In this document: positions 31,697 to 54,457 of the stretch, piece by piece
How positions within the stretch are numbered: the first letter of the stretch is position 1
Layout of the letters: the number at the start of each line of letters is the position of its first letter
Source of the DNA: Anaeromyxobacter sp. Fw109-5
GTDB taxonomy: Bacteria; Myxococcota; Myxococcia; Myxococcales; Anaeromyxobacteraceae
NCBI RefSeq assembly: GCF_000017505.1
Contig: NC_009675.1
Location: 1,178,001-1,242,000, forward strand
Direction of reading: 5' to 3'
Length of the DNA: 64,000 nt
Position numbers and translations under genes: made by a program
Notes under the pieces: generated by a model
Databases searched by the model: none
What the model was told of the DNA's origin: nothing
What the model saw: the letters and a program-made list of their open reading frames with translations, nothing else

Positions 31697-31742
31697 TGTC
31701 GGGGCGACTGGATTTGAACCAGCGACCACTTGCACCCCAAGC
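31697..31742 (-). repeat. att copy 1: 3' fragment of tRNA-Pro
   Basis: These 46 bases are identical to the 3' part of the tRNA-Pro gene at 54382-54427, running from the anticodon loop through the T-arm and acceptor strand. The 5' half of a tRNA is absent, so this is an attachment-site duplicate rather than a gene. It marks the left end of element 1. Confidence 0.92.
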
Positions 31743-31746
31743 GAAC

Positions 31747-32067
31747 ATGGGCCGAATGGACGGGGTGGCAACGCGTGGCAGCGCCTCGCACCCCCGCGAT
31801 ATAGTTCAGCCTCGCGTCGGGCCCGGATCCCACGGCGTGGCACCGATCGCACCCCGTGGCACGGTAAACGGTGCGCCGGCGGTGCGCGACGCTCAGTCCG
31901 TGTCGGCTCTCCTCACCGTCGCCGAGGTCGCCCGGCGCCTATCCGTCTGCCGCGCGACCGTGTACCGGCTGTGCCGGGAGGGACGGCTCCGGCACGTCCG
32001 CGTCTCGAATGCCATCCGGGTGCCCGAGCCGTCGCTTGCGGAGTACCTGCGCCGCGGCGGGGAGTGA
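31747..32067 (+). CDS. HTH_17/excisionase-like DNA-binding protein
   Basis: The last about 60 residues (LLTVAEVARRLSVCRATVYRLCREGRLRHVRVSNAIRVPEPSLAEYLRRGG) form a MerR-like winged helix-turn-helix of the excisionase family. Starting at the ATG at 31747 gives 106 residues, but the first about 45 look unstructured, and GTG codons near 31900 would give a compact 55-60 residue protein more typical of the family. It sits immediately beside att copy 1, where a recombination directionality factor would be expected. Excision control is inferred. Confidence 0.75.
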   Translation: MGRMDGVATRGSASHPRDIVQPRVGPGSHGVAPIAPRGTVNGAPAVRDAQSVSALLTVAEVARRLSVCRATVYRLCREGRLRHVRVSNAIRVPEPSLAEYLRRGGE

Positions 32068-32113
32068 ACCGCGGGGCTCGCTGACGAGGGGGGAGCGGAG
32101 CCGGGCCCGGGGT

Positions 32114-32770
32114 CTACTCGTCGTACTCCGGGAGTTCCGGGCGCCGGTGCTCGAGGTTCGTGAAGTAGATCGGCTCGGTCCCGACCTTCTGGAACTGCAA
32201 GTAGCGCAGCGCCCGCTCGAGGCGGACGTCGGGCATTTCCTGGACGCCACGGAAGTAGACGGCACCGAAGCACCCGGAGGAGTGGTGCCGGATGACGTGC
32301 TCCATGAGCTCGACCGCCATCGCGTACGTGTCCTGGGCCGGCGCGACCTCGATCGCGTCGATGTAGAGCAGCGAGCTGCCGAAGCCGGGCTCGCCGAGCG
32401 TCGGTCGGAGCTCCTCCTTGAGCATTCCAGCGTCGTCGAGCAGCACGAAGCCGAGGTGGCCGAGGTCCGCATCCACGTCGTCGGCGAAGACGAGCGGGTT
32501 CTCACCGCCGTTGACCAGGACGTCGTACCGCAGCAGTTGCCACCGCACGTGGGCGACCGCCTCGGCCGTGTCGGGACGCTCCTCCGGCCACTCGTCTTCC
32601 CCCACCAGGAACACGTGCGCTTCGAAGAACTGTCGGAACTGGTCCGCCAGGTCCTCGGTCCGGAGCGGCCGTGGATGAAGCGTGGGCCAGACCATCATGT
32701 GGTGCGGATCGAACGATCGCTTCGACTCGACGGCGGGTCGTCTTCCGCGGCCCTTCGGAGTGGTCGACAT
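32114..32770 (-). CDS. Unknown protein with possible GNAT-like fold
   Basis: A 218-residue protein from the ATG at 32770. I do not recognise a named family. Residues about 75-215 follow a GNAT acetyltransferase-like order: GHLGFVLLDDAG, then SSLLYIDAIEVAPAQDTYAMAVELMEHVIRHHSSG, GAVYFRGVQ, and RALRYLQFQKVGTEPIYFTNLEHR. The acetyl-CoA-binding Q/RxxGxG/A loop is not evident, so it may be inactive or only similar in shape. It lies just downstream of the AbiE pair on the same strand (23 bases), so it may be part of that defence operon. Confidence 0.6.
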   Translation of the reverse strand: MSTTPKGRGRRPAVESKRSFDPHHMMVWPTLHPRPLRTEDLADQFRQFFEAHVFLVGEDEWPEERPDTAEAVAHVRWQLLRYDVLVNGGENPLVFADDVDADLGHLGFVLLDDAGMLKEELRPTLGEPGFGSSLLYIDAIEVAPAQDTYAMAVELMEHVIRHHSSGCFGAVYFRGVQEMPDVRLERALRYLQFQKVGTEPIYFTNLEHRRPELPEYDE

Positions 32771-32793
32771 CGCTTCGCGCTCCGCACTCGTCT

Positions 32794-33693
32794 CTAGGTG
32801 AAGTCCCATGTCCACGAGCCGGGATCCCAGCTTCCGTGTGCGTCGGAGCCGAGCACCGGGTCGAGGAACCCCCGGGCCGCCGCCACGACGTCGTCGAGCG
32901 TGGTCCAGGGGAGCGCATCTTCCTCGGCGATCGCCGCGTACGGCTCTCTCCAGTCCGTCGGCGGATCGGGGAGGCGCGACGGCGCAGGGTGCGTGGCGCG
33001 GAACCCGAAGGTCTGCTCCAGCGCAGCTCGGACCCGCCGCGCGTCCCGCGGACCGATCTGCCCGAGCAGCGCTAGGTCCGGCAGGTCCTTCACGCGCGTG
33101 CTCGGTGTCGCCCGTGGAAGCGTGTAGGCGTGGAGCTTCTCCGCGACGTGCGTCTCGACCGGATACACCCGCAGCTCGGGTGCGGCGATGCCGGCGAACG
33201 CCAGGAGGTCGTCGCCGGTGATCAACTCCGGCCCGCCGAGAATGGGATCGCCGAACGCGACGTCGACGCCGAAGGGCTGACCGTAGAGCATGCCGGCGAG
33301 ACGGCACTCCGCCCGGAACCGCTGACCCTCGTACTGGACGCCGGGTCCGGCGATGTCGGGGTGGCGGGTGTCGACCGTGACCTCGAAGAACATGAAGTCG
33401 CCGAGGTCGAGCCTGCCCGCCCGCTGGAGGCGCGCGAGCAAGCCATCGGGCGATCCGACCAGGCGGAGGTCGATATCGCGGGTGGTCCGCGCCCGCTCGA
33501 GGCGCAGCTCGAGCACGAGGCCGCCTTTGAGGATGGCCGCGTCGCCGAGGACGCGCACGAGTCGCGCGAGGTACCGATCGAACACGAGCAGCTGCCGCCT
33601 CCGCGCGATGCCGCCCGGCTCCGCGACGTTCCGCAGCCGCTGGTCGAGCGCCGCCTTGAACGCCGCCGGTGTCGCGTACGCGCGGGGCTTCAT
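32794..33693 (-). CDS. abiEii: AbiEii/AbiGii nucleotidyltransferase toxin
   Basis: A 299-residue protein of the type IV toxin family. The nucleotidyltransferase signature is clear: ILKGGLVLELRL with GG at 57-58, and RDIDLRL with DxD at 73-75. Downstream are ITGDDLLAFAGI and VETHVAEKLHAYTLP, also conserved in the family. AbiEii-type toxins add nucleotides (to tRNA in studied relatives) and stop growth when phage infection disturbs the antitoxin. Its ATG overlaps the antitoxin stop by four bases, the normal arrangement. Confidence 0.92.
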   Translation of the reverse strand: MKPRAYATPAAFKAALDQRLRNVAEPGGIARRRQLLVFDRYLARLVRVLGDAAILKGGLVLELRLERARTTRDIDLRLVGSPDGLLARLQRAGRLDLGDFMFFEVTVDTRHPDIAGPGVQYEGQRFRAECRLAGMLYGQPFGVDVAFGDPILGGPELITGDDLLAFAGIAAPELRVYPVETHVAEKLHAYTLPRATPSTRVKDLPDLALLGQIGPRDARRVRAALEQTFGFRATHPAPSRLPDPPTDWREPYAAIAEEDALPWTTLDDVVAAARGFLDPVLGSDAHGSWDPGSWTWDFT

Positions 33694-34268
33694 CCTGGCA
33701 CCTCACGCAACCCCGCGGCCCGCGAGACCTCCGCGAGCCGTTCCGGCGACACGAGCCCCCGGGACCGCGCTTGCTGGAAGGCCTGGGCGAGCAGCTCCGG
33801 GGAGAGGTGTGCCATCGCACAGTCGAGGAGGGTTCGGCCCGGCTCGGTCACGGGGACGGCGCCGAACCACGATCGTTCGTCCGCGCGAACCGTAGCGGGG
33901 TGAAGCACCACTCCACGGGGAATCTTGAGGCGTCTCCCCCGCCAGTCCGCCGGAACCGTGAGATGGAGGCGCTTCGGGAGGACGTCGGAGAGCCCGTGCA
34001 GCGAGAGCGCCGTCTCGTGCGAGAAGACCCCGGCCTGCTTCGACCAGAGCCAGACCTCGGCGAGCTCCTCGTGATCGCCGGCCGGATAGTGAACGAGCCG
34101 GTAGATCCCGCGGCGGACCCGTCTGACGCGACCGAACTCGACGTACCGTTTGAGGAGCTGGTGGTAGTAGCCCGCCTCCGCGGCCTGTTCGGTCGTGAAG
34201 AGGCCGTCCTGACCGGAAGCTGTCGCGAAGAGCTTGTCCCAGCTCGGCTTTTCGGCTGGACGCGCCAC
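33690..34268 (-). CDS. abiEi: AbiEi-family antitoxin
   Basis: A 192-residue protein. The N-terminal winged helix (LFTTEQAAEAGYYHQLLKRYVEFGRVRRVRRGIYRLVHYP) is the DNA-binding part used for autorepression in the family. The C-terminal part (SHETALSLHGLSDVLPKRLHLTVP to GRTLLDCAMAHLSPELLAQA) carries the conserved antitoxin domain. It is first in the operon, directly before the toxin. AACGTTACGTT, overlapping inverted half-sites, occurs just upstream of its start and may be the operator. It is divergent from jetA. Confidence 0.92.
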   Translation of the reverse strand: MARPAEKPSWDKLFATASGQDGLFTTEQAAEAGYYHQLLKRYVEFGRVRRVRRGIYRLVHYPAGDHEELAEVWLWSKQAGVFSHETALSLHGLSDVLPKRLHLTVPADWRGRRLKIPRGVVLHPATVRADERSWFGAVPVTEPGRTLLDCAMAHLSPELLAQAFQQARSRGLVSPERLAEVSRAAGLREVPG

Positions 34269-54286: not shown

Positions 54287-54304
54287 CCCGGCCCCCCTCG
54301 AGAC

Positions 54305-54323
54305 GCACCACGAAGCGCACCAT
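54305..54323. repeat. GCACCA direct repeats near the right end of element 2
   Basis: GCACCAC (54305-54311) and GCACCAT (54317-54323) are 12 bases apart, about 60 bases inside the right att site. They match the repeats before the integrase at the other end of the element, as expected for arm-type integrase sites. Confidence 0.5.
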
Positions 54324-54339
54324 GCCGGCCGGAAAAGGA

Positions 54340-54377
54340 ACGGCCCGTCACCGAAAACCTACGTGGTGACGGGCCGT
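54340..54377 (-). terminator. Intrinsic terminator of tRNA-Pro
   Basis: A perfect 13-bp stem (ACGGCCCGTCACC/GGTGACGGGCCGT) directly after the tRNA 3' end in leftward reading, followed by TTCCTTTTCC. It belongs to element 2, so the island supplies the current terminator of the tRNA. Confidence 0.85.
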
Positions 54378-54381
54378 TAGG

Positions 54382-54427
54382 TGTCGGGGCGACTGGATTT
54401 GAACCAGCGACCACTTGCACCCCAAGC
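54382..54427 (-). repeat. att copy 3: 3' part of intact tRNA-Pro
   Basis: The 46 bases shared with copies 1 and 2. The identity ends inside the anticodon stem-loop, so strand exchange probably occurs in or near the anticodon loop. Confidence 0.9.
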
Positions 54428-54457
54428 AAGTGCGCTACCAGGCTGCGCTACGCCCCG
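54384..54457 (-). tRNA. tRNA-Pro (anticodon GGG)
   Basis: A 74-base cloverleaf on the minus strand. Acceptor CGGGGCG/CGCCCCG with discriminator A; D-arm GCGC/GCGC; anticodon stem CTTGC/GCAAG around TTGGGGT (anticodon GGG); T-arm GCTGG/CCAGT around TTCAAAT. The 3' CCA is not encoded. Its 3' part is the integration target for the two stacked elements; bases 54382-54427 are duplicated at the two other att sites. The gene is still whole. Confidence 0.95.

Follow-up and report, generated by a model that had tools for sequence, protein, structure and literature searches.

Tandem islands at tRNA genes have been described in Islander, together with a class of attachment (att) sites centered on the anticodon (PMC4383910). 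For integrative and conjugative elements (ICEs), integrative and mobilizable elements (IMEs), and cis-mobilizable elements (CIMEs), insertion at an att site containing the end of the target gene is the usual route, and a scenario in which a CIME and a further element come to lie in tandem has been set out (PMC5704250). In ICEKp1 and similar ICEs, insertion displaces the terminator of the tRNA, and the tRNA promoter drives transcription of the integrase gene (PMC13023037). Here, we analyze a locus of related design in Anaeromyxobacter sp. Fw109-5: a stretch of 64,000 nucleotides (the window; G000:C1:1178001-1242000) in which two intervals, which we call elements 1 and 2 (E1 and E2), are bounded by three copies of the 3′ half of a single gene, tRNA-Pro(GGG).

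Our analysis indicates that this arrangement very probably arose through two tandem site-specific insertions, an accretion at the 3′ end of tRNA-Pro(GGG) in which E1 entered first and E2 thereafter. Two stacked insertions are favored by several observations: every att block stops in the anticodon loop, the intervals have distinct arm motifs, the integrase of E2 is adjacent to its distal att, and neither interval recurs as a unit in 24 relatives. The first-pass annotation of the window had proposed two successive insertions; the att blocks, the arm motifs, and the E2 integrase bear this out, but the account needs amending in that E1 has no detectable integrase and a third element end may lie to its left.

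The tRNA-Pro(GGG) gene and its att copies

The intact integration target, tRNA-Pro(GGG), lies at 54383..54457 on the minus strand (ARAGORN; 65 bits with the Rfam tRNA model) and is the sole tRNA that ARAGORN finds in the window. A 46-bp block running from the discriminator of this tRNA to its anticodon loop (54382..54427) recurs at 46152..46197, the junction between E1 and E2, and at 31697..31742, the distal att of E1. A direct-repeat search confirmed the earlier observation that the three blocks share one orientation, and they proved to be exact copies, delimiting att-to-att intervals of 14,455 bp (E1) and 8,230 bp (E2). ARAGORN and a search of the complete single-contig genome (5,277,990 bases, 5.28 Mb) also agree with the statement that only the block at 54382 is joined to the 5′ half of the gene: the full tRNA is present once, with 100% partial copies only at 31701-31742 and 46156-46197.

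No further full copy of the block exists in the genome. With up to three mismatches allowed, the first half of the att sequence returned only the sites at 31697, 46152, and 54382, and the second half returned these and a single 3-mismatch match at 51425; shuffled sequence gave zero matches to either half. Two further tRNA-Pro genes match tRNA-Pro(GGG) at 83-84%, and a 40-bp piece with an 83% match is the displaced copy at a different tRNA-Pro island of the same genome.

In the intact tRNA, the core CACTTGC-ACCCCAA-GCAAGTG consists of inverted 7-bp arms flanking the 7-nt anticodon loop. Inverted arms around a central overlap are the form typical of the core site of a tyrosine recombinase. Both remnant att copies keep one arm, the loop, and just the first two bases of the second arm. 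The 3′ half of the present tRNA gene would have been contributed by whichever element entered last at that gene.

Element 2

E2 (46198..54381) occupies 8.2 kb between att copies and looks complete, with an intact integrase, an excisionase-like gene, a DnaC-type loader, and matching arm repeats at both ends. The tyrosine integrase gene (46274..47722, plus strand; Pfam Arm-DNA-bind_3, PHROG integrase 3e-16), whose likely start is the ATG at 46361, adjoins the distal att at 46152. The PF00589 core-domain model of Pfam fails to detect this protein, but its catalytic residues R, K, HxxR, H, and Y are invariant in a full-length alignment with two PF00589-positive integrases that are 34-38% identical to it. 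Arm repeats are found at the left end (GCACCAC three times, 46316..46349) and at the right end (GCACCAC and GCACCAT, 54303..54325), and the two ends match each other better than random pairs of stretches do (p=0.001 for the best shared 7-mer, p=0.001-0.003 for the GCACCA repeats). Three features that mark a tRNA-targeting element are found in E2: direct repeats at the ends together with an intact tRNA, an integrase with its catalytic residues, and arm repeats on both sides. E2 should be able to excise alone, by recombination of 46152 with 54382.

No close relative of the E2 integrase was found in GTDB genome contigs, IMG/VR, or phage records. Among 145 genomes of the order, at E<=1e-20, the only match was a second copy in its own genome, and a weaker one in relative G005 was found by local search. 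The own-genome copy, at 3,861 kb, adjoins a displaced tRNA-Pro copy, with tRNA-Pro(CGG) 40 kb rightward, and that of G005 adjoins the distal att of an island at the same tRNA-Pro as here. A PDB sequence search gave no match for the E2 integrase and no meaningful match for the putative replication initiator.

The remaining genes of E2 begin with an excisionase/AlpA-like helix-turn-helix (HTH) protein (48161..48412, plus; PHROG excisionase 1e-7). It is followed by a putative replication initiator (48409..49329, plus), so named from its position before the loader and matching no family, and by the DnaC-like helicase loader itself (49330..50001, plus; PHROG 2e-17, with DnaC homologues in Burkholderia phages). 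Further right lie an Mrr-type type IV restriction endonuclease (50325..51239, minus; Pfam Mrr_cat 3e-36 and Mrr_N 1e-35, PADLOC mREase_IV), an Abi_C protein named for the abortive infection C-terminus (51650..52801, plus; Pfam 1e-14), and two cargo proteins. The first of these (52839..53684, plus) has no significant family match, and an RKDFTH stretch suggests that it could be a HEPN RNase; the second (53744..54286, minus) has no family match. A PHROG scan of seven E2 genes, with part of the cargo outside the scan, gave matches to integration and replication functions only, and no packaging, capsid, or phage-control genes were recognized among the seven. The end of E2 that faces the tRNA carries an intrinsic terminator hairpin directly 3′ of the gene (54326..54381, minus strand; -30.7 kcal/mol).

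Element 1

E1 (31743..46151) spans 14.4 kb. At its left end, att is followed by arm repeats (TGGCA four times in 31743..31872, 0.06 expected) and then by an excisionase-like HTH_17 gene (31873..32067, plus; Pfam HTH_17 5e-15, TIGR01764 excisionase 2e-10). The same order is seen in integrase-bearing elements of three relatives (G015, G029, and G012), where the integrase lies at the opposite end, beside the terminator. The corresponding place in E1 holds an insertion sequence (IS), a gene resembling uracil-DNA glycosylases, and ~0.6 kb without a recognized gene. TGGCA recurs twice near the right end (46001..46105, 0.05 expected), and the match between the two ends is modest (p=0.009 for 6-mers and p=0.03 for 7-mers by a max-k-mer statistic); cross pairs of E1 and E2 ends give p=0.85-1.0 by 7-mer.

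Neither an integrase nor a relic of one was found in E1 by Pfam, by a PF00589 search of the genome, or by tblastn with the integrases of relatives and of E2, PF00589 being a model that misses the E2 integrase as well. E1 has no detectable integrase and so is probably not autonomous today; it retains the att copies that flank it, and it appears to have lost its integrase within the limited sensitivity of these searches, so that a decayed, CIME-like element is the most fitting description. No relic of transfer genes was seen in it. Neither a relaxase nor a coupling protein, which would mark an ICE or IME, is among the Pfam matches of the E1 and E2 genes, oriT being outside this search. E1 is probably immobile, except where a suitable integrase acts on it in trans. 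Two helpers were considered. Mobilization by the E2 integrase is disfavored, the core sites being identical but the arm motifs different. Another integrase of this genome, at 4,946 kb, resembles those of excisionase-first elements but overlaps a tRNA-Gly and so is not an obvious helper either.

The cargo of E1 includes defense genes. An AbiE type IV toxin-antitoxin pair can be assigned from the adjoining AbiEii toxin, a nucleotidyltransferase (32794..33693), and AbiEi antitoxin (33690..34268), both on the minus strand and both identified by Pfam and PADLOC. It is followed on the plus strand by a Wadjet type II system, with JetA, JetB, JetC, and JetD in one operon, all open and with the expected domains: JetA (DUF2397; 34315..35991; Pfam 1e-76, PADLOC JetA2 2e-250), JetB (DUF2398; 36117..37295; Pfam 1e-71, the domain being residues 287-654 of the open reading frame (ORF) 35259-37295), JetC (37292..41455; PADLOC JetC2 1954 bits), a MukB/SbcC-like ATPase in which Walker A, signature, and Walker B motifs are present, and JetD (DUF3323/DUF2399; 41302..42792; Pfam 5e-47, PADLOC JetD2), a Toprim-like nuclease. 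A relative of JetA (67%) was found in only one other of the 142 genomes of the order that were searched. The Pfam and PADLOC annotation of both elements agrees with the first-pass description of intervals filled with defense and mobility genes.

Beyond the Wadjet operon lie an IS of the IS256 (Mutator) family (42945..44670, plus), a protein of the uracil-DNA-glycosylase superfamily (44718..45470, plus; Pfam 1e-6), and, at the tRNA-facing end, a terminator hairpin (46105..46151, minus; -39.1 kcal/mol) that would have been displaced when E2 entered. The IS holds a DUF6572 passenger gene (44235-44597) between its transposase and its right end. In relative G009, a related IS (80%) has a different, unrelated small gene at this position, and the IS of G005 has no gene there, so that the IS possibly has a variable passenger slot.

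Terminators at the element ends

The survey of terminators covered 20 att copies, taken from this window and from 14 relatives. In all 20 cases, a strong hairpin (-29 to -44 kcal/mol) comes next on the tRNA strand, mostly followed by a short T run; random 68-mers from the window have a median of -25.5 kcal/mol and a 5% value of -36.1 kcal/mol. Nearly every hairpin has a sequence of its own; those of G002 and G005 differ as well, despite 96% identity between the right flanks of these genomes. The two G029 copies resemble each other. The pattern would be explained most simply if an element end brings its terminator along. We claim no novelty for the carriage of terminators at att sites, on the basis of a light literature search.

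A bolder proposal, which we regard as a long shot, is that every element entering tRNA-Pro(GGG) in Anaeromyxobacteraceae comes with a terminator of its own, that these mobile terminators record the order of insertion, and that Wadjet II of E1, as a system that cuts small circular DNA, may destroy the excised or incoming circles of competing elements, locking the stack in place. If true, a row of displaced terminators would be a record of past insertions, and Wadjet II would guard the att site.

Relatives and flanking DNA

Close relatives recognized by a conserved flanking gene all belong to Anaeromyxobacter (A. terrae, A. soli, A. oryzisoli, A. oryzae, and strain PSR-1). Neither the E1 nor the E2 interval is found as a unit in the 24 relatives compared, where matches are confined to single genes (AbiE, IS, and Mrr). 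The first-pass annotation had named uninterrupted synteny, with the same genes as core, as a finding that would speak against insertion, and no such case was encountered. The same tRNA-Pro holds different islands with the same att in other relatives, making it a busy insertion site in the family, at which terminators appear to have been replaced almost every time.

Some loci in relatives merit separate mention. In G005 (L039, L038), a 77-kb island lies at the same tRNA-Pro, with an att copy at 1,228,930 and an E2-related integrase. At L084 (G012:C124), an integrase end is followed by a terminator, a displaced copy of another tRNA-Pro, and then an excisionase-first end, a second example of stacked elements. 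The integrase frames at L047, L046, and L084 (in G029, G015, and G012) stay open through terminator and att; the C-terminus of these integrases could differ between the integrated and circular states, although the open frames may be an artefact of G+C content.

The genes outside the two elements had been described as conserved. This is true of the right side, where synteny resumes at ~54,755 with 88-90% identity; across the genus, the right flank is kept at 79-91%, together with tRNA-Pro(GGG). It is not true of the left side, where no examined relative shows synteny with the DNA extending to 31,696. Synteny with the nearest relatives ends at about window -2500, with a further piece reaching to about -1000, and the variable DNA beside tRNA-Pro(GGG) amounts to ~55 kb, not 22.7 kb. 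At the left border of the variable DNA, two segments from -2310 to -1003 (G000:C1 ~1,175,690-1,176,997) match A. soli DNA at 78-88%, and their counterpart there (G006:C80:36428-38008) lies just upstream of tRNA-Pro, that is, on the opposite side.

The DNA left of 31697 may be what remains of a third, older element without a distal att (E0), an addition to the two insertions to which we give an even chance. Besides the lost synteny, it would account for the last 90 bp before 31697 (31607..31696), which carry GCAACC repeats and a terminator hairpin and are probably a tRNA-facing end; over 91 nt they share 72% identity with the A. terrae (G003) end that lies next to the tRNA, and no significant similarity extends further. 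However, neither an integrase nor a distal att was found left of 31697, the genes close by have ordinary metabolic and regulatory functions and relatives elsewhere in Anaeromyxobacter, and the 90 bp could be an old chromosomal terminator region of the tRNA.

Other features of the flanks are a 276-nt tandem repeat pair, 95% identical (29932-30483), within ORF 27826-30564; three tandem 20-nt units (GGGTGNGNGNGCTGGACTTC) at 54679-54738, between the tRNA and the following gene; and a 6S RNA gene identified by Rfam (62148-62340, minus strand).

Discussion

The locus is most readily explained if the attP of each element held a copy of the tRNA 3′ half. A tyrosine integrase would recombine within the 7-bp overlap in the anticodon loop, the incoming copy restoring the tRNA and the old 3′ half being pushed outward as a remnant. 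E1 would have entered, possibly beside an older E0, and would later have lost its integrase, persisting as a CIME-like island that keeps the Wadjet II and AbiE defenses. E2, which has an integrase, an excisionase-like gene, and replication-type genes of its own, would then have entered, most probably at the intact tRNA. With a terminator hairpin on each element end, the tRNA transcript would still end properly after every insertion.

Several points weigh against this scenario. Neither excision, nor a circular form, nor a strain with a single element has been seen. The arm match of E1 is modest: the statistic used first, a k-mer sum, gave the pairing of its ends no support, and one 6-mer pairing of the left end of E1 with the right end of E2 reaches p=0.038. 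The absence of an integrase from E1 rests on tblastn and on Pfam, whose core model overlooks the E2 integrase. Moreover, E1 could have formed by the fusion of two or more insertions, and that E1 preceded E2 is something we infer.

The order of insertion deserves particular care. E2 had been called the younger element because it lies beside the intact tRNA, an argument that does not hold: relative age cannot be read from this position, since an insertion of E1 at the distal E2 att would have produced an identical map. Such a reverse order, with E2 first, nevertheless seems unlikely. A displaced att keeps half of the symmetric core and would hence be a poorer target than the intact tRNA, and the usual route leads into an att with the end of the target gene (PMC5704250). 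There is also a gradient of decay, from E0 without a distal att through E1 without an integrase to the apparently complete E2, suggesting that E1 is the older of the two. This gradient and the usual preference for an intact target favor E2 as the younger element.

A single event would suffice if the whole 22.7 kb had integrated once as a composite, already stacked, with the inner att at 46152 left over from an earlier host. The distal att at 31697 and the tRNA copy do bound the whole, and CIME-ICE tandem transfers of such a kind have been described (PMC5704250), yet we consider this origin quite improbable. The outer arm motifs differ (TGGCA on the left and GCACCA on the right, with no shared 7-mer), so no single integrase would be expected to pair 31697 with 54382, and E1 and E2 occur together in no relative examined. 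Finally, tRNA fragments can arise by other routes, but the dispersed-fragment idea raised in the first-pass annotation, here taken as scattering by duplication, can be dismissed, as the copies share one orientation and a boundary in the anticodon loop, have integrase or excisionase genes and arm repeats next to them, and were found nowhere else in the whole-genome search.

Two tandem insertions, E1 before E2, can be compared with several known systems. E2 resembles small phage satellites and prophage remnants in its integrase, excisionase-like, and DnaC-like loader genes, but differs from phage satellites in having no recognized packaging, capsid, or phage-control genes and no phage relative of its integrase that we could find. 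As in ICEKp1 and similar ICEs (PMC13023037), an element that integrates at the 3′ end of the tRNA moves the previous terminator to its own far end. Unlike in those ICEs, every element end here has a terminator immediately behind the restored tRNA, and E2 carries its integrase at the opposite end; transcription of the integrase from the tRNA is therefore not expected. The Wadjet type II system is like others in having all four JetABCD genes, and unlike them in its location on a decayed element flanked by tRNA att copies.

With the anticodon-centered islands of Islander (PMC4383910), the locus shares the direct repeat of a tRNA 3′ fragment, a crossover in the anticodon loop, and a tyrosine integrase. 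It departs from the Islander arrays in that their tandem rule calls for an integrase in every island of an array; lacking one, E1 would not count under that rule as an island in its own right. No relaxase or conjugation gene was found in E1 or E2, in contrast to IMEs and ICEs, and conjugative transfer is unsupported. The locus nevertheless comes closest to the tandem accretion of an IME or ICE with a CIME (PMC5704250), in which an integrase-positive element lies beside the intact target and an integrase-less, att-flanked element lies outside it. It would be a clear example of a known route of bacterial genome growth, with traces of a third, older insertion. In a complete genome from a little-studied group, it illustrates how defense genes may gather at one tRNA by repeated insertion and be kept after the integrase has been lost.

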